64,000 nucleotides of DNA. It comes from Wielerella bovis. GTDB lineage: Bacteria > Pseudomonadota > Gammaproteobacteria > Burkholderiales > Neisseriaceae. Shown in pieces: positions 1 to 34,604 of this stretch (its first letter is position 1; the number at the start of each line of letters is the position of its first letter). The stretch spans positions 1,612,001 through 1,676,000 of the forward strand of contig NZ_CP092361.1 in assembly GCF_022354465.1 (NCBI RefSeq), in the 5' to 3' direction. The notes below the pieces were generated by a model. That model was not told the origin of the DNA, made no database searches, and worked only from the letters and a program-made list of their open reading frames with translations. The position numbers and the translations under genes are program-made.

Positions 1-121
1 GGTTTCTATTTTAGGAAAAAAGTAAAATAGATAATGGAATTATTAAATATATCAAATAGTTATCATATTAAAAAATGCTTTTTAAATGGTGAATCAAACA
101 AATTTAATCAAGGAGAAATTA

Positions 122-1678
122 ATGAGTTTTGTTGATATTAAAGAAATATTAACAATGCCATCTATCGGCTTATTTAAATACGTTGAGCTTTTTGAAATTG
201 TTGGCATAAAAGGCAAAGAGCAGCCATTCAATATATTTACTTTAGCTGTCGCTCAAGAATTAGAACTTGACTTAGTAAATGATGAAAAATTTACGCCTAA
301 TCCTATTCAACTAAAAAAAGATAAATCCCTTAAATTCGGTATTTTTAGAAGCATTCTCTCTATAGATGATTTTCTTGATAGAGTAAATAATTTGGATAAT
401 AGCCAATGGAAAAACAGCCAACAAAAACCACTTTCTTGTGGGCAGTTAAGGAGTATTCCAAAAGTTTATATTCCAGCCTTAGAAAAAGGTAAAAATGAAT
501 TTTTAGGCTTATTAAAGAATAATTTCTTTAGTGGTTCTTATCTCTTTGAATGGTTTGATGAGAGTAAAGAGCATGTTCAAGGGTTAATGGAAAATCATTT
601 AGCTCTTATGGAAATATCAGAAAAATTACAAGAACATTTACCAATTAAAATAGGTAGTCATTCAGATAGGTTAGGTAATTTTATTGTTCAAATTCCTTGT
701 TCATCAGTTGCTTTTAAAATTAAAGGAATAGATAAAGAAAGTCATCAGTTAATTTCCAATTTATCTATCAATCCTTCCATAGAACCTTTGAATTTAACAG
801 GTGTTTTTTGGAGAGGAAACAATGGGAGTATTATTGATTTTCAGAAGTTACATCTTACTTTAGGAGAAAATCTAATTCCTTTTAAGCAAATTAATGGGAT
901 TGGATACTATACAATTTGGGATGAAGATAAGCAGATTATTTGTTCTGGTGGAGTGATTCCTTCGTTTGTGGAAAGTGTGAATCTTTCCATTGGTATTCAA
1001 GAAACAAACCAAAGAATTTTTAAGTTGCCTAATGGTCAAGAGCAAAGAATCAATATATTTGTTCGAGCTTCACAAAGTCAGATAGGTAAATCATCTAAAG
1101 ATTATCGTGATTGGGTTGCAAATCGATTGATAAAGTTTGAGAAACAGGAATTACGTGATTCCTTAAAGCTCCGACAGTTCAAACAGAATATGCGTGAAGA
1201 AGCGTTGGCATTTATTCGAGAGTTAATTAAACGATACGGTGAAAATGGAGTTTATTTGTGGGATCCTTACTTGAACTCTAAAGATTTATTAGAAACTGTA
1301 TTTTTTAATCCTTATGCAAATACTCCAATTAAAGCACTGACAGGGTTAAAAACTTTAGGAGAGCATAACATTAAAACAATATACAAAAGTGAGCTTGAAC
1401 AAGCCATTATTGAAAAAGGTTGGCTAGACTTAATATTTCTTAATGCTGATAAATCTAAGGTAGGGGACTTTCATGACAGATTCATTATATTTCCAAAAAA
1501 TCAAGATAATCCTGCTAGAGCTTGGTCATTAGGAACATCAGTAAACAGTTTGGGAACAAGCCATCATATCATTCACGAAGTAGAAGATGGACAAATCATT
1601 GCTGATGTTTTTGAAGAAATGTGGGAACAGTCAATCGTAAATGAGGAAAATATTATATGGAAATCCAAGAACAGTTAA
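122..1678 (+). CDS. Defence-island protein resembling the VPA1262 family, PLD-like C-terminus
   Basis: Protein of 518 aa. An upstream in-frame ATG exists at 86, but AAGGAG at 110-115 sits six bases before the ATG at 122, so I start there. The C-terminal third carries YLWDPYL near residue 378, HDRF near 451 and a following LGTSVNSLG stretch; this arrangement resembles degenerate phospholipase-D-type nuclease domains and the VPA1262 family, whose members tend to lie in phage-defence neighbourhoods. I infer a nucleic-acid-targeting role but cannot show catalysis. The gene is much more AT-rich than the housekeeping genes of this window, a sign of transfer. Its 3' end overlaps the next gene by 22 bases, so the two are almost certainly one operon; upstream partners may lie outside the window. 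Family assignment is from memory of motif layout and is tentative. Confidence 0.55.
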   Translation: MSFVDIKEILTMPSIGLFKYVELFEIVGIKGKEQPFNIFTLAVAQELELDLVNDEKFTPNPIQLKKDKSLKFGIFRSILSIDDFLDRVNNLDNSQWKNSQQKPLSCGQLRSIPKVYIPALEKGKNEFLGLLKNNFFSGSYLFEWFDESKEHVQGLMENHLALMEISEKLQEHLPIKIGSHSDRLGNFIVQIPCSSVAFKIKGIDKESHQLISNLSINPSIEPLNLTGVFWRGNNGSIIDFQKLHLTLGENLIPFKQINGIGYYTIWDEDKQIICSGGVIPSFVESVNLSIGIQETNQRIFKLPNGQEQRINIFVRASQSQIGKSSKDYRDWVANRLIKFEKQELRDSLKLRQFKQNMREEALAFIRELIKRYGENGVYLWDPYLNSKDLLETVFFNPYANTPIKALTGLKTLGEHNIKTIYKSELEQAIIEKGWLDLIFLNADKSKVGDFHDRFIIFPKNQDNPARAWSLGTSVNSLGTSHHIIHEVEDGQIIADVFEEMWEQSIVNEENIIWKSKNS

Positions 1679-3060
1679 CCGTAAAAGCAATATTCAATTT
1701 GGCTAAAATGTCCGATGTTATTCGGGAAATACCCGATGAAGTATATCAATACTTTGAAAGTAATTTTAACTTTGAACAATGGCAATGGAAACAAAGGGAA
1801 CTTTTTTGGCAATTTCTTGATGGATATTATCCTAAAAGCATAGACTATCAGAAAGATATTATTTACATAGATGGCCTATTAAAAAAAGAACAACTTATAA
1901 AAAGTATTTCTTGGATTATAAGAATATTACAAGATGAACAAGCTACGCCTAAAAATCAAAAAATTGCTTTTGAGTTAACTTGCTGTATTCCACATTTTTG
2001 GAAAATTAGCTATGAAGAAGGCTATGCGTTTTCTGAGTCTAGTGCTAAATTAGCATTATCTTATCTAAATAGTATAGATACTAATTTACTAGTTAATCAC
2101 AATGCTCATATTAATGAAAGAGAAGTAATAGAAAAGCTTTATATATCCCTAGAAAGTTGCCAATGGAAAGAAATTGAAACTAATCATTATCAAATATCTT
2201 CTATATGTGGACAATTATCTCTACACCGGCATAGTACATATTTATTTATCGCAGAACACCATAATAATGAAATACTTAATCTTATTAATAATGAAAAAAG
2301 AATTTGGCAACTTCTCTATTGGTTGGCATTGCTCCCAGAAAAATATAAGCATAGCATTGCATTGAAAACCAATAATCAGCTTGCACAATTTCTATTATTA
2401 TTGGATTTAGGCTATTTAATTCGTAATAAATTAGAGCAAGAGCAATTTCAATTATCAGAAATTTGGTATGAGTGCCCAGTTGAATGGTTTAAGGTTTTTA
2501 ATAAATATCCAGCAAGATACCGATGGTTACAACCTGGGCTAGGACGTTTTTTAGTTTCTGCGGCACAAGAACAATTTCAAGTTTATATTGATAGCATGGA
2601 ATTGTCTACTCCGCCTAAGGATATTCAAGATTGCTTAAAATATTTCTTTGAACATGCTGAACAAGAAAGTATTCATTATTTTTGTAAATTAGCATATCAA
2701 AAATGGGAAAATTGGGATTTTGATAGTAAATACTCAATTGAAAAAAGCAGCTTAGACAGAGCTATAACTAAGTATTTTCAAGACTTAATAACAGATGAAG
2801 AAAGGTCTGATTTTATTGAAAATGAAATAAATAAGATTATATATTTCAACAAGTTTTGGTTTAGTAGTATCGTTGAGTTAGATAAGTTCATTTATTTTCA
2901 TTTATCTAGAATGCAACCTGTCTGTATAGCTGATGAGCTAAAACAAAATAATGCTTTATCATTTGATGATTTGAATACAAAAATTTATTATCCAAGCTTG
3001 TTCCAAAAAGATCAGAGATGGAGGAACTGGGTTAATTTAGATAAATTAAATCTAGATTAG
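1657..3060 (+). CDS. Unknown 467-aa partner of the upstream defence-type gene
   Basis: I do not recognise this 467-aa protein. It is rich in Trp, Tyr, Gln and Glu, has no signal peptide or obvious membrane segment, and reads as a mostly helical cytoplasmic protein. No Walker, nuclease or methyltransferase motif stands out. GAGG at 1643-1646 precedes the ATG, and the start lies inside the end of the preceding gene, so translation is probably coupled. Base composition is the same AT-rich type as its neighbour, which indicates they moved together. The pairing suggests a second component of a small defence or conflict module; the function itself is unknown. Confidence 0.6.
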   Translation: MEIQEQLTVKAIFNLAKMSDVIREIPDEVYQYFESNFNFEQWQWKQRELFWQFLDGYYPKSIDYQKDIIYIDGLLKKEQLIKSISWIIRILQDEQATPKNQKIAFELTCCIPHFWKISYEEGYAFSESSAKLALSYLNSIDTNLLVNHNAHINEREVIEKLYISLESCQWKEIETNHYQISSICGQLSLHRHSTYLFIAEHHNNEILNLINNEKRIWQLLYWLALLPEKYKHSIALKTNNQLAQFLLLLDLGYLIRNKLEQEQFQLSEIWYECPVEWFKVFNKYPARYRWLQPGLGRFLVSAAQEQFQVYIDSMELSTPPKDIQDCLKYFFEHAEQESIHYFCKLAYQKWENWDFDSKYSIEKSSLDRAITKYFQDLITDEERSDFIENEINKIIYFNKFWFSSIVELDKFIYFHLSRMQPVCIADELKQNNALSFDDLNTKIYYPSLFQKDQRWRNWVNLDKLNLD

Positions 3061-3711: not shown

Positions 3712-4927
3712 TCATTCCCCAAACACCTTCCAAAAAGGCAAAATCTCTATCGTTTTATCACCCTCAATCATTTTATCTGTCTGATCCAGCGTAATAATAG
3801 TCCCCCACTTAATCCCCAAAAAACTCATTGCATCTAGCAAGCCGTCTCGCTCCCAGGCGAGGTTTTCGGTATTGAGTTGCCAGCAAACCTGAATTAATTG
3901 CACAGGCGTGCTGTTTTGGCAGACAACAAAATCGCATTCTTTGTGATTTTCGTTGTAGTAATAAATCTCCGAAAATTGTCGTCTCAGTTCCCAAAATACG
4001 GCATTTTCCAGTTTTCTGTCGAGATCTTGGCTAAAAGACGGGCTAATTACGCGTTGCAAACCATTGTCGATAAAATAGACTTTACGCGGATTGGCAAGCT
4101 GTACTTTGTAGGAATAGGCAAATTTCGGTAACGTTTGAATCACATAGGTTTGCTCTAAATGCGAGAGATACTCTTGCACAGTAGCGGTACTTTTCACTTC
4201 AAGGCTTTGTTTAAGCTTGCCTGCGGTAATTAGGTTGCCCACATTGCCCGCCAAAAACAGCAACAGACGTTTCATAGAGCGTTCATCTCGAATACCGAAA
4301 CGTACAATAATATCCCGATATAAAATATCGTTAATCAGGCTATTTAAAATTTCATCTTCATTAAATTGCAAATATTGCGGAAAACCGCCCTGTTGCAGAT
4401 AATTTTTCACTGACTCAGCATTTTTTTTCTTTACTTAGAAATTCACAAAATTCCATAAAAGAGAAGGGGAAAAGTTCTTTGCTAATATGTCGTCCGGTGA
4501 GTTTTGTGCCCAATTCTCGGCTTAATAATGAGGCATTTGAGCCAGTTACCACCACTTGAAAACCTTGATCCAGCTTGCCTCGTACATAAACTTCCCGACC
4601 TTCAATGATTTGAATTTCATCAAAATAAAGGGTTTGGATCTGCGGTTTTTCAGCGATTATTTCGTCTAATAAAGCGAAGTCATTAAACTCAAAATTGAAT
4701 AACTTCGGCGTATCAAAATTGAGAAACAAATAGTTATTTTGTTCTTGCTTTTCAATCAGCTGAGCAAGTAAGGTGCTTTTTCCACTACGGCGAATTCCCG
4801 ACACTACCAAAGCAAAATTGGGCAAAATGTTGATTTTTTCCAGCATCTGGCGAGGATACGTCTTTTGCGTGAATAGTTGCTGTTGTTGAGTTTCAACCGC
4901 TTGTGCAATTTCTGTTTTTAAGAGCAT
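3712..4927 (-). pseudogene. AAA ATPase with DUF4143 C-terminus, split by a frameshift
   Basis: Two reading frames make one protein of about 405 aa. The first part (4927-4415) holds Walker A GIRRSGKS at residues 44-51 and Walker B YFDE near 101-104; it ends KEKKC and stops. The second part (to 3712) supplies the DUF4143 domain with VYFIDNG and ECDFVV. The break is at an A8 run on the coding strand (T8 at 4421-4428); seven A's would read through as KEKNAESVKNYLQQ. The start has a strong AAAGGAGAG. Such ATPases are widespread, and their biological role is poorly known. The A8 run could mean phase variation, a fixed mutation or a sequencing error; the two halves are otherwise intact. Confidence 0.8.
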
Positions 4928-6488: not shown

Positions 6489-6731
6489 ATGACTACCGCA
6501 AAATTATTTTGGACAGGCAATTCCCAAGCCGTGCGATTGCCCAAAGAGTTTCGTTTTGAAGGCAAAGAAGTTCGCATTTTTAAACACGGCAATCAAGTGA
6601 TTATTGAGCCGATTGCCGATGACTGGGGCTGGGTCAATGAGTTAGAACCTTTTGATGACACAATGGAACAAGCCATTTTGGAGCTAAAAAATGATGTGCC
6701 ACAAGAGCGAGATTGGAGCGTTTTTGAATGA
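6489..6731 (+). CDS. vapB: VapB-type antitoxin, AbrB/SpoVT fold
   Basis: Small 80-aa protein. The N-terminal half (TGNSQAVRLPKEFRF) is the swapped-hairpin AbrB-type DNA-binding domain of VapB/MvaT-type antitoxins; the acidic C-terminal tail would bind and neutralise the toxin. CGGAGA lies just before the start. The stop overlaps the vapC start by four bases, the normal antitoxin-first, translationally coupled arrangement. It should also repress its own promoter as a complex with VapC. Confidence 0.88.
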   Translation: MTTAKLFWTGNSQAVRLPKEFRFEGKEVRIFKHGNQVIIEPIADDWGWVNELEPFDDTMEQAILELKNDVPQERDWSVFE

Positions 6732-7120
6732 AATATTTGTTGGATACCAATATCATCATCGCTTTTCAAAAACAACATCAAGGCTTGTTGGCACAAATGA
6801 AAAAGCATTCGGTCAATGATTTTGCATTGTCCAACATTGTGTTATTTGAATTGGCATTTGGAGCATACAACAGCCAAAAGGTTGATGAAAATTTGCATAA
6901 ATTAAGCCAATTACGCTTTCCCACCCTGACATTTAACAGTCAAGACGCTTATCACGCAGGCAAAATTCGGGCAAACTTACAAAAACAAGGCACACCAATC
7001 GGTGCGTATGATACGCTGATTGCAGGTCAAGCCATTGCCCAAAATTTGATTTTAATTACCCATAATATCAAAGAATTTGAACGGGTTGAAGGGTTAAGGT
7101 CTGAAAATTGGTTGATGTAG
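6728..7120 (+). CDS. vapC: VapC-type PIN-domain ribonuclease toxin
   Basis: PIN-domain endoribonuclease of 130 aa; VapC enzymes typically cleave tRNA or rRNA when released from VapB. Acidic metal-binding residues are visible at D6 (LLDTNI), E41 and D95 (GAYDTLIAG), followed by THNIKEF in the place of the usual TNN-x-REF motif. It starts within the last codons of vapB. An overlapping DUS pair follows the stop at 7122-7139. Confidence 0.9.
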   Translation: MKYLLDTNIIIAFQKQHQGLLAQMKKHSVNDFALSNIVLFELAFGAYNSQKVDENLHKLSQLRFPTLTFNSQDAYHAGKIRANLQKQGTPIGAYDTLIAGQAIAQNLILITHNIKEFERVEGLRSENWLM

Positions 7121-13482: not shown

Positions 13483-14745
13483 ATGTTAATTGAATTTAGC
13501 GTGGCAAATTGCCTGTCTTTTGATGAAAGACAAACTTTGAGTATGGTCAAATCGCACAGCGATGAGTTGCCAAATAACGCCTATTCGGTTGAAAAGGCAA
13601 AGGACTTGCATCTATTGCACTCGGTTGCCATTTATGGTGCAAATGCCAGTGGTAAATCCAATTTCATTAAGGCTTTCCGCTTGATGGAACAGATTGTAAC
13701 AACCACATCGCAGCGTGGCGATGAACTTGATGTAACACCTTTTAAACTTAATCAAAAAAACATCACAGAACCATCTGAGTTTGAAGTGGTTTTCGTCATT
13801 GATGGTGTCCGCTATCAGTATGGTTTTTCAGCAGATAAATATCAAATTTATGATGAATGGCTTTATGCCTATCCAAAAAATCGCCCACAAAAATGGTTTG
13901 AACGGGTTTGGGTTAATGATGAAAAACGCCATACTTGGCAATTTAGTTCATTATTTTTGGGTAATAAACGCTTGTGGCAAGAATCTACAAGAGATAACGC
14001 CTTATTTTTATCTACTGCAGTGCAATTAAATAGTGAGCAATTAAAACCCTTGTTTGACTGGTTTGATAAGACATTGGCATTTATTGGTGTTGATGGATTA
14101 AGCCCGAGCTATACCGCTCAACTATGCACCAAAGAACAAAAAAATGAAATCATTCGCCTGCTAAGGACTGCTGATTTTAATATTCATGATATTAAAGTTC
14201 AAATTGAAGATTTTGATGAATCCAAACTGCCCGACGATATGCCTTCCGAGTTAAAAAATCATTTGGTAAAAGCCTTAAAAGGGACCAAACAAATTGATAG
14301 CATTGAATTGTTGCATTATGACGATTTGGGCAATCCTGTTTATTTTGATTTTGATGAAGAATCAGATGGCACACAAAAATTCTTTGCTTTTTCTGGTCCC
14401 ATTTTAGATATTTTAATGAATGGCAGGATTTTATTTATTGATGAATTAAATCAAAATCTACACCCTAAATTAGTACAATTTTTGGTTGATTTATTTCATA
14501 ATCCCAAGTCCAACCCAAGACACGCCCAACTTATTTTTACAACACATGAAACTTCTATTCTAAATCAAAATGTGTTTCGTAGAGATCAAATTTGGTTTTG
14601 TGAACGCAATAAACAACAATCTTCTATTTTGTATCCTTTATCTGATTTCAGCCCCAAAAAAGGTAAAGAGAATTTAGAAAATGTTTATTTGTCGGGCGGA
14701 TATGGAGCAGTGCCATTTATTGACCATTTTATTTTGGAGCAATAA
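13483..14745 (+). CDS. AAA ATPase of AbiL-like (RloA/RloB) phage-defence pair
   Basis: ATPase of 420 aa in the AAA_15/21 group (RloA, AbiLi-like). Walker A GANASGKS at residues 52-59, Walker B ILFIDELNQNLHP near 315-327, and a TTHE switch near 351 are intact. The N-terminus MLIEFSVANCLSF is typical, which supports this start although no good ribosome-binding site is visible. The next gene begins 4 bases downstream and encodes the RloB/TOPRIM partner; such pairs are known from AbiL abortive infection and from type I restriction loci. I infer that the ATPase senses infection and controls the TOPRIM nuclease. The pair is AT-rich and sits between direct repeats of a regulatory element, so it is an insertion. 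Confidence 0.88.
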   Translation: MLIEFSVANCLSFDERQTLSMVKSHSDELPNNAYSVEKAKDLHLLHSVAIYGANASGKSNFIKAFRLMEQIVTTTSQRGDELDVTPFKLNQKNITEPSEFEVVFVIDGVRYQYGFSADKYQIYDEWLYAYPKNRPQKWFERVWVNDEKRHTWQFSSLFLGNKRLWQESTRDNALFLSTAVQLNSEQLKPLFDWFDKTLAFIGVDGLSPSYTAQLCTKEQKNEIIRLLRTADFNIHDIKVQIEDFDESKLPDDMPSELKNHLVKALKGTKQIDSIELLHYDDLGNPVYFDFDEESDGTQKFFAFSGPILDILMNGRILFIDELNQNLHPKLVQFLVDLFHNPKSNPRHAQLIFTTHETSILNQNVFRRDQIWFCERNKQQSSILYPLSDFSPKKGKENLENVYLSGGYGAVPFIDHFILEQ

Positions 14746-14748
14746 ATA

Positions 14749-15420
14749 ATGGGTAGTGATGATTTATTTAAAAAACGCAAATTACGAGCCGCCAAAGAAA
14801 AACGCAAGAAAACTGAAAGAAAAAATCATGATAGAGTTTTGATTGTTTGTGAAGGTGAGAAAACAGAACCATTTTATTTTAATGGTTTGCGTTCGGCTTA
14901 TAAATTGGATACTGCAAACATTAAGATAACAGGTGATTGCGGTTCTGACCCAATGAGTATCGTTGATAAAGCCATTGAAGAGTATGAAAAATCCAAGCAA
15001 GATAGAAATTGCTTTGATAGAGTTTATTGTGTGTTTGATAAAGATACACACCCAAAATATCAGAATGCTATCAATAAAATCAAACAATTATCAACAGGGA
15101 AAAACAAAAAGCCATTCTTTGTAGTTTGTTCTGTTCCTTGTTTTGAGTATTGGTTATTATTACATTTTGTTTATACAACACAGCCATTTTCGGCATCTGG
15201 TAAAAATAGTATTGCCGATAATGTTATTAAAGAGCTTAAAAAATATATCCCAACCTATGAAAAGGGACAAGAGGATATCTTTATCTTATTGCATGACAAA
15301 CTTGAATTTGCCATAAAAAATGCTCATAGAGCTAATGAAGAAGCGATAAAAAATAACACAGACAATCCAAGCACATCAATTATTGAATTGGTTGAATATT
15401 TAATTAAATTAAAAGAATAG
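14749..15420 (+). CDS. RloB-family TOPRIM-like effector of AbiL-like system
   Basis: Protein of 223 aa with a very basic N-terminus (residues 8-27) and the RloB fold: VCEGEKTEPFYF (E35), FDKDTHP (D97, D99) and CFEYWLLLHF (E133), consistent with a TOPRIM metal site. RloB proteins pair with RloA ATPases and are the presumed toxic component of AbiL-type abortive infection; RNA or DNA cleavage is inferred. It is in one operon with the ATPase and is followed by an AT-only hairpin at 15433-15460. Confidence 0.88.
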   Translation: MGSDDLFKKRKLRAAKEKRKKTERKNHDRVLIVCEGEKTEPFYFNGLRSAYKLDTANIKITGDCGSDPMSIVDKAIEEYEKSKQDRNCFDRVYCVFDKDTHPKYQNAINKIKQLSTGKNKKPFFVVCSVPCFEYWLLLHFVYTTQPFSASGKNSIADNVIKELKKYIPTYEKGQEDIFILLHDKLEFAIKNAHRANEEAIKNNTDNPSTSIIELVEYLIKLKE

Positions 15421-29059: not shown

Positions 29060-30997
29060 ATGACCCGCGCCTATTATCGTCAATCTATCTCACAATTTTT
29101 AAACACTGACAACAATCAAATTCTTGGTGAATTGCTCGCCCAACACACGCATCAAAAATTAGATGATTTACAACGCAATGCTTGGCAAAAACAAATCGCT
29201 ATTCTCAAAAATCAATTACAAGGCATTGACGGACATATTTATTTTGAATTCAGCATTCCACGTATGGGCAAGCGCGTTGATAATATTGTCATTATTGGCG
29301 ACACAATTTTCCTATTAGAATTTAAAATTGGCGAAATACAATATCGTTCTCATGATTTAGACCAAGTGATTGATTATGCTTTGGATATGCGTAATTTTCA
29401 CGAAGGCAGTCATCAAGCAAAATTAATTCCTATTTTATTGGCAGAAAAAGCACCGAATACTCACCCACAAAATAATATTCAACAAGCGATAAATTTTCAG
29501 GCTGCCATACGTTTAAATGCAGCTAATTTGGGCAGTTTTTTACGTCAATTTTCCTCACAAAATTCATTTGATATTGCCCATTGGGAGCAATCCGCTTACA
29601 AACCTACGCCAACCATTGTGGAAGCAGCACAAACCTTATATCAAAAACACGATGTGCGTGAAATTACTCGTTCAGATGCGGGAGCCCAAAATCTGTCATT
29701 GACGGCAAATTGCATCAGTCAAATTATTGACAATTCTAAGAAAAATCATCAAAAAACCATTTGTTTTATTACTGGTGTACCAGGAGCGGGCAAAACGTTA
29801 GCAGGCTTAAACATTGCCAATCAACGCCTACAAACTGCTGATGATGAACACGCCGTATTTTTGTCGGGCAATGGTCCGCTTGTGGCGGTTTTACAAGAAG
29901 CATTGGCGCGCAATAGCAAGGCTGTCAGCAAAAAAGAAGCAACCAGCCACGCCAAAACCTTTATTCAAAACATTCATCATTTTCGTGATGAATATTTGCA
30001 AGACACGGCACCACCTACCGAAAAAGTGGTAATTTTTGATGAAGCTCAGCGTGCGTGGAACGAGGCTCAAACCAGCGCATTTATGAAACGCAAACGTGGG
30101 CGCGAAGATTTTTGCCAATCGGAACCTGATTTTTTGATTGAGGTGATGAATCGTCATCAAGACTGGTGTGTGATTATTGCCCTGATTGGCGGTGGGCAAG
30201 AAATCAATACGGGCGAGGCTGGACTGTCTGAATGGGTGCACGCGCTTAAAACGCATTATGCGGATTGGCAGGTGCATTATTCGCCTTTGATTGTCGATGA
30301 GGCGCATTATCTGGACGCGCCAGAACTTTGTGCGTTTGTGGAAAAGCAAGGCATTATTGAACCGCATTTACATTTGGCGACGTCGGTGCGTTCATTTCGC
30401 TCGGCAAAGGTATCGGCATTTATTCATGCAGTTTTGGATAATAATTTATCGCTTGCCAAAACTTTATATCAAGAAATCAAAGACAATTATCCCATTGTTT
30501 TAACCAGAGATTTAAACACTGCAAAAATGTGGCTACACAAACAAGCGCGTGGTAGCGAGCGTTTTGGTTTGATTGCCTCATCAGGTGCACGGCGTTTAAA
30601 GGCGCTTGGCGTTAATGTCAAAAATGAAATTGAAGTGGAAAAATGGTTTTTAAATGATAAAAATGACGTGCGTTCATCGTATTTTTTAGAAGATGTGGCC
30701 AGTGAATTTGATGTGCAGGGATTGGAATTGGATTTTGCCTGTGTGGCGTGGGACGGTAATTTTTATTATGACAAAGGCTGGCATTATCAAAATTTTAAGG
30801 GCACTAAATGGCAAAATGTCCGACAAGCAGAAGAGCAAAAGTTTATTCAAAATGCGCATCGGGTTTTATTGACGCGCGCACGGCAAGGTATGGTGATTTG
30901 GGTGCCAGAAGGGAATGAAAATGACCATACTCGCCCAAGCCGATTTTATGACGGGACTTATGAATTTTGGCGGGGGATTGGGGTAAGGGTTTTGTGA
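29060..30997 (+). CDS. DUF2075 protein: nuclease-like N-terminus with P-loop helicase/ATPase domain
   Basis: Protein of 645 aa. RVDNIVIIGDTIFLLEFKIGE at about residues 72-92 has the D...E-x-K layout of PD-(D/E)XK nucleases. FITGVPGAGKTLAG at 235-248 is Walker A and VVIFDEAQRAWNEAQ at about 323 is Walker B, as in DUF2075/schlafen-like superfamily 1 helicase-type proteins; DFACVAWDG and LLTRARQG near the C-terminus are the later helicase motifs. DUF2075 proteins are common in defence islands, and it directly precedes the ABC-three-component operon (69-base gap, same strand). Whether it works with that operon or alone is open. Confidence 0.85.
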   Translation: MTRAYYRQSISQFLNTDNNQILGELLAQHTHQKLDDLQRNAWQKQIAILKNQLQGIDGHIYFEFSIPRMGKRVDNIVIIGDTIFLLEFKIGEIQYRSHDLDQVIDYALDMRNFHEGSHQAKLIPILLAEKAPNTHPQNNIQQAINFQAAIRLNAANLGSFLRQFSSQNSFDIAHWEQSAYKPTPTIVEAAQTLYQKHDVREITRSDAGAQNLSLTANCISQIIDNSKKNHQKTICFITGVPGAGKTLAGLNIANQRLQTADDEHAVFLSGNGPLVAVLQEALARNSKAVSKKEATSHAKTFIQNIHHFRDEYLQDTAPPTEKVVIFDEAQRAWNEAQTSAFMKRKRGREDFCQSEPDFLIEVMNRHQDWCVIIALIGGGQEINTGEAGLSEWVHALKTHYADWQVHYSPLIVDEAHYLDAPELCAFVEKQGIIEPHLHLATSVRSFRSAKVSAFIHAVLDNNLSLAKTLYQEIKDNYPIVLTRDLNTAKMWLHKQARGSERFGLIASSGARRLKALGVNVKNEIEVEKWFLNDKNDVRSSYFLEDVASEFDVQGLELDFACVAWDGNFYYDKGWHYQNFKGTKWQNVRQAEEQKFIQNAHRVLLTRARQGMVIWVPEGNENDHTRPSRFYDGTYEFWRGIGVRVL

Positions 30998-31066: not shown

Positions 31067-32152
31067 ATGGCAATGAATACAACCAAAAATTCTGCATTAG
31101 ATACAGCTTTGTCTTTTTATTATCAAACATTGGTTACTTTGAATAACTGTTTTGATTTAAAGAAAGGTGGACAGATTAAAATGGAATCAGATGGTGATAT
31201 TAGCATTATTGGCAACTTATTAACTGCCACACAAATAGAAGTTAAACATTATTCTGATGCTTTGACTGATAATCATGAAAATTTTTGGAAGACACTCAGT
31301 AACTGGGTGCAGCCTGAATTTAAATATGAAGCATATCAATATTTGGTGTTATACACCACACAATCCTATGGCGCAAGAACACTTTTAAAAACTTGGAATG
31401 AAAAAGATGAAAATGGAAAGTTGGAAATTTTAAATCAAATAATTCAAAAGAAAAAAGTTAAGAAAGTTGAGCAATACAAAACCAATGTTATGAATACACC
31501 GCAAGAAAAATTAAAAAATATTTTATCTAAGGTTTATTTGTCTGTGGAAAATAAAGATGTGTTTTCTTTAAGAGAAAGCCTTTTGGAAAAAATATCTTAT
31601 ATTTCAGATGAATATAAAAATCAATATATTGATGGTTTAACTGGTTTTTTATATAGAAAGGCACAAAAAGGAGAATGGATTATCTCATATCAGGAATTCC
31701 ACGAAAAACGATTGGAACTAACTCGGATATACTCTAGCGAATTGCCTTTTCCAGAATTTTTTGGGGAACCTGTATCTGCTGAAGATGCAGATAGATACCA
31801 ATCAAAACTATTTGTATCTAAAATAAAAAATATAGAATATGATGATGTTTTACCAGAAGCCATTGGAAACTATTTGGAGTTAATACACACTTTAAATCGT
31901 GATTTGGATATTTCTTCAACCTACCGAGCATATACCAATAATTATAGAAATATGCTTGCTTCAAAATTGAATCGTCAATATGCAAAAGCAAAAAGAGAAC
32001 AAACTCATCCTCAGACATTTTATGATGATGCGGTGGGTGAAAATCCATTTTCGCTAAAAAATTATTGCCCTGATATGGCTTACAAAAATGGTTTAATCCA
32101 CGATATTATGGATGATGATGAGCAAAATTTAAAATGGGATACAACACAATGA
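31067..32152 (+). CDS. Predicted nuclease effector of an ABC-three-component system
   Basis: Protein of 361 aa. The N-terminal part (residues 8-80) has GGQIKMESDGDISI...QIEVKHY followed by FWKTLSNWV: D44, E58 and K60 fit a PD-(D/E)XK nuclease of the type fused to ABC-3C effector tails. The rest, up to about 340, is a helical region that would be the C-terminal domain contacting the other components. It ends in an ATGA overlap with the middle component. AT-rich composition and position next to DUF2075 support a conflict role. I infer that the nuclease is released or activated when the ATPase senses invading or damaged nucleic acid. No experimental function is known to me for this exact subtype. 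Confidence 0.78.
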   Translation: MAMNTTKNSALDTALSFYYQTLVTLNNCFDLKKGGQIKMESDGDISIIGNLLTATQIEVKHYSDALTDNHENFWKTLSNWVQPEFKYEAYQYLVLYTTQSYGARTLLKTWNEKDENGKLEILNQIIQKKKVKKVEQYKTNVMNTPQEKLKNILSKVYLSVENKDVFSLRESLLEKISYISDEYKNQYIDGLTGFLYRKAQKGEWIISYQEFHEKRLELTRIYSSELPFPEFFGEPVSAEDADRYQSKLFVSKIKNIEYDDVLPEAIGNYLELIHTLNRDLDISSTYRAYTNNYRNMLASKLNRQYAKAKREQTHPQTFYDDAVGENPFSLKNYCPDMAYKNGLIHDIMDDDEQNLKWDTTQ

Positions 32153-32595
32153 ATATTGTTGATGCTATTTATCATATTAAATACAATCCATTTAAATACG
32201 GCGAGTACATTTATTGTTTTTATCACCATTTGGAAAATCAAACTGAAAATATCTTGCTATTGCCACTTATTTTACCAATTTGTACACATTCGTATTATAG
32301 TGATAAAGTTAAAAAGAATAATATCAACAGTTCTATTTACACTATTTTTAAAGAACAAAGAGAACTTCTGGATTTCCAAGAAAGAGTTGATAACTTAAAA
32401 GAATTGGGTTTTAGTAGTTTGCAATATTGTTTAAATCAAAATTGGCTTTATCTAAATCCAGATAAACTCAATATAGTTTCAAGTAAAGACAGTATTGATG
32501 TTAATCAAAATACACTGGTGGCAAAAAAGTTAGCAATGCTATTTAGTCGCAGTTCAAAAAGTGAAATTTATTCATTGTTAGGAGTGAAGTTATGA
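32149..32595 (+). CDS. Middle component of an ABC-three-component system
   Basis: Small 148-aa protein; the start is placed at the ATG overlapping the previous stop (ATGA), five codons inside the longest open frame. The N-terminus IVDAIYHIKYNPFKYGEYIYCFYHHL and C-terminus LVAKKLAMLFSRSSKSEIYSLLGVK fit the small helical adaptor found between effector and ATPase in ABC-3C operons. It has no catalytic motif. It ends in another ATGA overlap with the ATPase gene, so all three subunits are translationally coupled and presumably form one complex. Confidence 0.75.
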   Translation: MNIVDAIYHIKYNPFKYGEYIYCFYHHLENQTENILLLPLILPICTHSYYSDKVKKNNINSSIYTIFKEQRELLDFQERVDNLKELGFSSLQYCLNQNWLYLNPDKLNIVSSKDSIDVNQNTLVAKKLAMLFSRSSKSEIYSLLGVKL

Positions 32596-34604
32596 GAATG
32601 ATGCTATGCGAGATTGGTGTATTGGATACTGAGGGAAAAATCCATAAAGTTGAATTGGATGAGGGGTTAAATATTATTACCGGAAAATCTTCTACTGGTA
32701 AAAGTGCCTTGATTGAAATTGTGGATTATTGCTTTGTAAGTGGGGAATATACTGTACCAAAAGGTGTAATTACTGATAATGCAGAAATTTATTATATTTA
32801 TTTAAAACAGTATAATAAATATTTTGTTTTGGGAAGGCATGCTAAAAAACACACTGATTGCTATTTAAAACACGAGCAAGACTATCAAAAAGATTTAATT
32901 AATTTTGATTATTTTGCTTCAATTAAGGCTGTTAACATTAAACACTTTAAGGGTAACCTAAAAAATTTATTTATTGGTATCAATGACGTTGATGAGTCTG
33001 AAATTTCTAAGGAAATCAAGGGTAAATCACCAACGCCAAGTATCCGTAGTTTTATGTCATTTATGCTTCAACATCAAAATTTGATTGCTAATAAACATGC
33101 CTTATTTTATAGATTTGATGAAAAAGAAAAACGCGACCAAGTGATTGAACATACCAAAATATTTTTAGGTTTTGTTAATCAGGATTATTTTGTTATTAGC
33201 AAAGAGAAAGAAAATATTGAATATCAGATTAAATCATTACAAAGAGAGAAAAAATCACAAGAAAAAATATATGAAAAATACAAAAACATGATTCATCCCC
33301 TGTTATCTTCCTTGCGTTCATTAATGGGTATTGATGAAGATGATTTTCCCAAATTTCACCTTATTGATACTCATATTGAATCCTTTAAGGAAGAAATTCA
33401 CAAAATGATTTGTGATGATCACATTAATAGAACCTCCGATGAATCATCCAATTATTATCGTCATCTCAGTGAAATTTTGGAAGAAAAAACCCATAATAGA
33501 AAAATATTGTCAATGAAAAGAAACCAAATTAAGCATAGTTTAAATTTGGAAGAATCTGTTTCTAATGATTTTCATCATTTGCAAAAAATTGAATTAAATA
33601 ATCCACAAAAGGATATTTGCCCATTTTGTCAAAATGAATCCGATACATTAGCGGAACATGCAAAACTTTTAAATATGGCAATCCATAAATTTAATACTAG
33701 CATTTCTGAAAATAAAGGACTAAAAGCCGAATTGCAACTTGCATTAAAAGATGTTGAAAAAGAAATATCTACACTAAATCATGAAATCAAAGAAACCGAA
33801 AACTTAATGAGCAAAATAAAAGGAAATAATCAACTTGTACAAAAAAACATGGCTACACTGGAAAATATTTTAAATATAAAATCTAATTTATTTTCTATTT
33901 TGGATATAATTAATTTAAAAAATCATACAGATTTAGACAATCAAATTGAGCAGCTCAAAGCCATTTATAAAGAATTAGAAAATAAATTAAATATTTACAA
34001 TATATCAAATAATATCAATAAGGCAAATCATCGTGTCAATGAAATTATGAGTCAAATTGGAAGGAATTTTGATTTTGAGGATTCTTATCGCCCGATTAAA
34101 TTGAAATTTTCTTTTGAAAACTTTAATTTATACCATGAAACAACAAATGGTGAGAAAATTTATTTGCGCTCAATGGGGAGTGGCGCAAATTGGCTTTATA
34201 GTCATTTGACATTATTTTTAGCACTACATCAATATTTTATTGAATTGGATAATCGCGCATCTGATGGTTTGCTTAAACAAGAATGCCTTATTCCTTCTAT
34301 ATTAATGATAGACCAACCAACTCAGGTGTACTTTCCTAACTTTAAATTTGATACATTTGCTGAATTTGATGAGAAAGATATTAAGGAATTGGAACACGAT
34401 CCAAAAACCTTTGATGAAGATATTCAATCTGTTACCAATATTTTTAAGCAACTTGCAATATATTGCCATGATTTAAAACAAAAGTTTGGTTATTCTCCAC
34501 AAATCATTATTACTGACCATGTTGATGGGCTGAATTTAGGGGAATTTAATTTTGAAGATTTTGTCAAAGCACGTTGGAGAAAAAGAGGTTTTATTAAGGA
34601 GTAA
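32592..34604 (+). CDS. DUF3732-type Rad50-like ATPase of an ABC-three-component system
   Basis: ATPase of 670 aa. Walker A GKSSTGKS at residues 31-38, a long coiled coil from about 195 to 500 interrupted by DICPFCQNE (C343 and C346, resembling the Rad50 zinc hook), an ABC-signature-like MGSGANWLYSHL near 528, Walker B SILMIDQPTQ near 572 and an H-loop ITDHV near 639. This is the SMC/Rad50 layout with DUF3732-type details. AGGAG precedes the ATG. Together with the two upstream genes it forms a complete three-component operon. By analogy with other Rad50/SMC defence ATPases I infer DNA-end or DNA-structure sensing that licenses the nuclease subunit. Confidence 0.85.
   Translation: MRMMLCEIGVLDTEGKIHKVELDEGLNIITGKSSTGKSALIEIVDYCFVSGEYTVPKGVITDNAEIYYIYLKQYNKYFVLGRHAKKHTDCYLKHEQDYQKDLINFDYFASIKAVNIKHFKGNLKNLFIGINDVDESEISKEIKGKSPTPSIRSFMSFMLQHQNLIANKHALFYRFDEKEKRDQVIEHTKIFLGFVNQDYFVISKEKENIEYQIKSLQREKKSQEKIYEKYKNMIHPLLSSLRSLMGIDEDDFPKFHLIDTHIESFKEEIHKMICDDHINRTSDESSNYYRHLSEILEEKTHNRKILSMKRNQIKHSLNLEESVSNDFHHLQKIELNNPQKDICPFCQNESDTLAEHAKLLNMAIHKFNTSISENKGLKAELQLALKDVEKEISTLNHEIKETENLMSKIKGNNQLVQKNMATLENILNIKSNLFSILDIINLKNHTDLDNQIEQLKAIYKELENKLNIYNISNNINKANHRVNEIMSQIGRNFDFEDSYRPIKLKFSFENFNLYHETTNGEKIYLRSMGSGANWLYSHLTLFLALHQYFIELDNRASDGLLKQECLIPSILMIDQPTQVYFPNFKFDTFAEFDEKDIKELEHDPKTFDEDIQSVTNIFKQLAIYCHDLKQKFGYSPQIIITDHVDGLNLGEFNFEDFVKARWRKRGFIKE

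Follow-up and report, generated by a model that had tools for sequence, protein, structure and literature searches.

Gene VPA1262 of V. parahaemolyticus lies in the genomic island VPaI-6. In open-access text, the gene is mentioned in two papers, one of which, the 2006 genomic-island paper, draws no link to defence in its passages on this island. In the present study, we analysed a locus of Wielerella bovis consisting of two overlapping genes, here referred to as A and B, at the start of a 64,000-nucleotide stretch of the chromosome (contig NZ_CP092361.1, positions 1,612,001 to 1,676,000; hereafter the window). Like the members of the VPA1262 family (NF040699), protein A combines a homologous N-terminal domain with a domain resembling phospholipase D (PLD) that carries an HDR motif (hhalign probability 97, E 1.9e-10), and that family is found on plasmids and islands too; it consists, however, of a single protein of about 1,100 aa, whereas the module described here comprises two genes. 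A three-gene VPA1262_N variant was identified on the Klebsiella variicola plasmid pML9ba2 (L009:11446-15774) and at a further locus (L108:6687-11057). Its A protein is homologous to ours (hhalign probability 99), but retains the aspartate of the motif (HDRFIAVD), and it is followed by a second small PLD-like gene and a gene for a large third protein without detectable homology to B. At both loci, two PLD-like proteins with HDRF are encoded; the neighbours are a DUF3732-like ATPase gene at L108 and genes for Abi and TrlF at L009. The fused VPA1262 and the three-gene form both occur on plasmids, some of them near restriction-modification (R-M), toxin-antitoxin or Abi genes.

Among the PADLOC candidates, PDC-S05 showed a weak match to the PLD domain of A alone (residues 371-513, E 1.3e-4, 19.2 bits), but it is a single-gene candidate without B, and only positions 181-301 of its 306-residue model were matched. 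APAP (pAgo and AgaP, PMC11442185) is likewise a two-component immunity system including a PLD nuclease of atypical motif, though its partner is an Argonaute and AgaP retains HxK. AgaP is a functional PLD nuclease with a remote GSxN; on its own it is toxic, and pAgo as its partner suppresses it (PMC11442185). BrxL-HKD of BREX (PMC12839542) shares with A the replacement of the motif lysine by arginine, but is fused to BrxL, keeps the aspartate (HRD), and belongs to a multi-gene system; BrxL-HKD proteins with this replacement were called likely active (PMC12839542). The open-access text searched contained no paper that names the module, and an unnamed listing in supplementary tables or subscription papers is possible.

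Organization of the locus

Both open reading frames proved to be real, and a first-pass annotation of the window, which had described an AT-rich two-gene module with a VPA1262-like first protein and a 22-base overlap of the genes, was borne out (Table 1). The GC content is 0.29-0.32 at positions 1-3000, whereas most of the window has values of about 0.38-0.47; the host genome is a complete chromosome of 2.29 Mb. The frame of gene A is already open from an ATG at position 86, but ATG 122 is regarded as the better start, since it is preceded by the ribosome-binding site AAGGAG. Residue numbers of A nevertheless count from ATG 86. The ATG of gene B, with GAGG upstream, lies inside the end of gene A.

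The same annotation had supposed that further 5' genes of the module might lie beyond the window. When 12 kb upstream were read, this was not confirmed: the upstream neighbour of A encodes a DUF4143 AAA ATPase (PADLOC PDC-S01-like), which was rejected as a component of the module, as it adjoins A in just one other locus (L041), so that the two genes are considered complete. Downstream of the module, a second DUF4143 AAA gene, apparently frameshifted, was noted on the minus strand (3712-4927), and a prophage contig (L111) carries a longer DUF4143 copy (412 aa) upstream of A.

Table 1. Genes, domains and motifs of the module, with positions in the window
Feature	Position	Strand	Basis and remarks
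Gene A, VPA1262_N-type protein, 518 aa	122..1678	+	ORF scan; NF040700 E 7.8e-60
Gene B, predicted alpha-solenoid partner, 467 aa, new family	1657..3060	+	ORF scan
A, N-terminal part, predicted mostly beta with Fn3/GH2-like beta-sandwich elements	152..1105	+	residues about 23-340; AlphaFold2
A, predicted C-terminal PLD-superfamily domain	1160..1675	+	residues about 359-530; VIA, Foldseek
A, motif WDPYL (W392, D393 and L396 invariant)	1259..1273	+	A alignment
A, modified HKD motif FHDRFIIFP (H463 and R465 invariant, P470 replaces D)	1469..1495	+	A alignment
A, GTSVNSLG..HHI, GSxN equivalent and conserved His pair	1532..1570	+	A alignment

Pairing and distribution of A and B

When 84,980 species genomes were scanned with A, 95 relatives were revealed, 80 of which were kept, and the addition of plasmid and phage loci led to 87 distinct A loci. 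In 82 of these, the gene immediately following A was a homologue of B, and it overlapped A in 73 of the 82. The conserved start of B lay inside A by 16 bases in 24 loci and by 19 bases in eight, while exactly 22 bases were also shared in M. cuniculi (L012), H. seminalis (L013), Testudinibacter (L041), Rhizobium (L026), and Psychrobacter (L063). Most of the wider gaps were due to an IS element (L007) or to frames that are broken (L022, L062, L091). Furthermore, the distances among A proteins and those among B proteins were correlated over 65 loci (r = 0.89), a value reached in none of 2000 permutations. Altogether, A and B form a conserved, co-inherited module, far beyond chance. As for the loci without B, the sequence ends shortly past A in L011 and L090, L009 represents the three-gene form, and a KAP-like NTPase (L085) or an FRG-like protein (L089, also PDC-S15), both named by eye, stands downstream of A in place of B. 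The latter locus, from Methanobrevibacter, harbors two tandem A-like genes together with the FRG-like protein (L089:7561-13091).

Conversely, three B queries of plasmids matched only A-carrying records, within the sensitivity of those searches, and a B query of 274 genomes returned only the window itself and two weak fragments. The pair was identified in Pseudomonadota, Bacteroidota, Bacillota, Campylobacterota, Acidobacteriota, Chloroflexota, Myxococcota, Bdellovibrionota, Thermodesulfobacteriota, and Candidatus Melainabacteria, and A was also found in Methanobacteriota, giving an overall spread of about 11 phyla of bacteria and archaea, some of them represented by single metagenome bins. A search of E. 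coli genomes revealed the pair in none of them.

Horizontal transfer

The nearest relative of A was found in Moraxella cuniculi (84% identical), while the host analysed here belongs to the Neisseriaceae, and the DNA match to the M. cuniculi locus covers A and B only, beginning at A and stopping near the stop codon of B. In line with this, B was detected in none of 100 related genomes searched. The taxonomic distribution is patchy: copies from Halomonadaceae and Alcaligenaceae are near-identical, and those of Moraxellaceae group with Pasteurellaceae. In 66 of 73 loci, the cassette was AT-richer than its flanks. Moreover, the module is carried on plasmids and in IMG/VR contigs, and a prophage copy (L111) adjoins tail genes. 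The DNA-uptake words AGGCAGCCTGAA and AGGCTGCCTGAA, dialects that mark the genome as Neisseriaceae, occur 50 and 21 times in the window, respectively, but none lies inside the module (4% by chance alone). The module is thus horizontally transferred. Upstream of the module at another locus, a gene for a membrane-rich protein with a GC content of 20-29% (L002:6237-7298) is likely another acquired gene.

Neighbourhood of the module

The first-pass annotation had also suggested a conflict system, to be checked by the neighbourhoods of homologues, and these homologues indeed sit among defence genes. In R. etli, the immediate neighbours of the module are a DUF2971 gene and a CBASS cyclase with an S-4TM effector, on an Agrobacterium plasmid it is flanked by two restriction endonucleases with AbiEii near, and in Aliarcobacter a type I R-M system and a reverse transcriptase are near the module. 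PADLOC analysis of 264 nearest and second-nearest genes revealed at least 16 distinct named systems versus one in 254 control genes (Fisher p 2e-4; 0.006 without putative candidates), where the control genes were from Proteobacteria only and some matches may be generic methyltransferases. Here, distinct named systems were counted at strict E-values, replacing a first contrast of 204 versus 8 families, which was dropped as inflated because a single HsdS protein matches 86 models. Nearest genes matched PDC-S01, ThsB, HamA, a CBASS effector, PD-T4-6, and HsdS (E up to 1e-84). The second-nearest genes (E up to 1e-50) matched type I and II methyltransferases, ThsA, a cyclase, LmuA, and MkoA as well as the putative candidates PDC-S02, -M71A, -M68A, and -M62B. 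Enriched in the flanks were Thoeris, CBASS, Hachiman, Mokosh, Lamassu, type I R-M, and PD-T4-6, and the module is associated with defence islands.

At some single loci, several flanking genes belong to ordinary metabolism, as would be expected if the pair were a housekeeping or metabolic operon lying in islands by accident. This explanation is very improbable, given that the module is sparse, patchy, AT-rich against its flanks, and without a constant neighbour, and that a search of 100 other relatives did not reveal it, while prophages and plasmids carry it.

Protein A

Protein A matched the NCBIfam model VPA1262_N_dom (NF040700) with 203 bits over residues 83-515, passing the curated cut-off of 80. 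The full-length model VPA1262_fam (NF040699) was matched in the region of the PLD domain only, with 31.4 bits, which is below its cut-off of 325 bits for about 1,026 positions. An AlphaFold2 model of A reached a pLDDT of 88.7 and a pTM of 0.79. Within its beta-rich N-terminal part, residues 205-296 gave a VIA Z of about 9.6. For the C-terminal domain, VIA revealed many independent PLD entries with Z values from 13.0 to 10, led by FAM83A (13.0), NucT (12.3), Nuc (11.7), and SauUSI (11.4), and Foldseek matched Zucchini (E 1e-3, probability 1.0) and NucT (probability 1.0 too). The C-terminus of A, as modelled, has a PLD-superfamily fold, which agrees with the PLD-like C-terminus with HDRF recognized in the first-pass annotation.

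The tetrad HDRF (H463, D464, R465, F466) was unchanged in 75 of 75 A sequences. Nevertheless, A departs from the canonical HxK(x)4D(x)6GSxN and displays H463-x-R465, P470 in place of the aspartate, and GTSVN farther along; lysine is replaced by arginine in all 75 sequences and aspartate by proline in 72. Thirteen residues of A are invariant across the 75 sequences, ten of which fall in the PLD domain (W392, D393, L396, T404, F462, H463, D464, R465, F466, and F469). No other part of the pair is as well conserved as this domain, which has a mean identity of 46%, compared to 22% for the middle of A and 19% for B. The latter two are fast-evolving, as recognition parts often are.

Since A has HDRF-I-I-F-P where HxK(x)4D would be expected, we only infer that it acts as a phosphodiesterase or nuclease. 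The PLD-like folds of FAM83A and TrmB are usually regarded as serving binding and not cleavage, and neither protein is known to be a nuclease. As FAM83A is the top VIA match and TrmB has the same fold, the PLD domain of A could be a binding module. It might then be a catalytically dead sensor of ligands or nucleic acids, with the active step in B or a recruited host factor, and the missing lysine and aspartate of HKD would fit such a role. We consider this unlikely, as H463, D464, R465, F466, and D393 remain unchanged across 75 divergent sequences, which, together with the strong conservation of the domain, is as expected for an active site, and as the predicted alpha-solenoid of B shows no sign of a catalytic centre.

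Protein B

The statement that the second protein belongs to no nameable family also held, as searches of Pfam, PADLOC, NCBIfam, and PHROGs resulted in zero family matches. Its AlphaFold2 model is an all-helical solenoid (pLDDT 89, pTM 0.87) without a clear metabolic role. Given the defence link of the neighbourhoods as well, neither of the two outcomes named in the first-pass annotation as refuting its reading was observed. With regard to the HEAT, Armadillo, and PUF repeat proteins, comparison of B with known folds gave a best VIA Z of 6.8, a value within the range of common arrangements, while Foldseek gave nothing at E <= 0.001 and comparison with viral structures revealed no match. At the sequence level, solved structures yielded designed or unrelated chains only, and a single-sequence query of viral contigs resulted in no match. 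Two columns stand out in the alignment of B, one of them fully and the other nearly invariant, and both are tryptophan. According to the model, B is an alpha-solenoid of a new family without a close structural match. Kinship of B to the C-terminal half of VPA1262 or to the large protein of the three-gene form was considered and rejected (hhalign probability <1% in each case).

Proposed function

Pairing, folds, co-inheritance, horizontal transfer, and defence-island context were obtained computationally, and based on these we propose, with a probability of roughly 0.55, that the module is a two-protein, horizontally mobile defence system with A as a PLD-type effector and B as its sensor or restraint. 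The beta-sandwich domains of the effector A may bind a trigger or partner, and its PLD phosphodiesterase domain, with His-x-Arg, no Asp, and a remote GTSVN, would be expected to cleave nucleic acids or some other phosphodiester. Co-produced with A via overlapping frames, B most likely binds A in a complex and would either hold it inactive until infection or sense the invader, thereby presumably protecting the host from phages or plasmids.

Overlapping genes, strict pairing, co-inheritance, and the location on plasmids and mobile islands would equally suit an addiction pair of the toxin-antitoxin kind, with A as a toxic PLD nuclease neutralised by B, which would serve plasmid or island maintenance first and phage defence secondarily; a parallel is provided by the PLD nuclease AgaP, which is toxic by itself but suppressed when its partner is present (PMC11442185). 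However, 518 and 467 aa are large for classical toxin-antitoxin proteins, A has N-terminal domains superfluous to a simple toxin, and its middle, at a mean identity of 22%, evolves fast next to a PLD domain with 46%. We therefore regard an addiction pair as rather unlikely, though slightly less so than a dead PLD domain.

Returning to the defence reading, it is possible, at somewhat less than even odds, that the module represents an undescribed, widespread two-protein immune class, in which a fast-evolving alpha-solenoid controls a PLD nuclease that has a new catalytic motif, HDR...P. Together with the fused VPA1262 and the three-gene form, this class would form a family of immune systems on one VPA1262_N/PLD core. 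From a protein family that had a name but no description, and a gene that lacked annotation, the analysis defines a candidate system that can be tested and that occurs in about 11 phyla; it also gives the VPA1262 gene of VPaI-6 a likely context. If A is active, a PLD active site without the lysine and aspartate of HKD would be added to those known, as would a solenoid-controlled PLD effector in bacterial immunity.

Other genes in the window

Apart from the module, a vapBC-like toxin-antitoxin pair was identified by eye (6489-7120). An AbiL pair (13483-15420) consists of genes for an AbiLi ATPase, which is also AriA-like, and an AbiLii/RloB-like protein. In addition, PADLOC detected a Lamassu-like set of three genes (LmuA, LmuC, LmuB; 31067-34604) with a GC content of 26-29%, beside which a gene for a DUF2075-like helicase (PDC-S41) is located (29060-30997).
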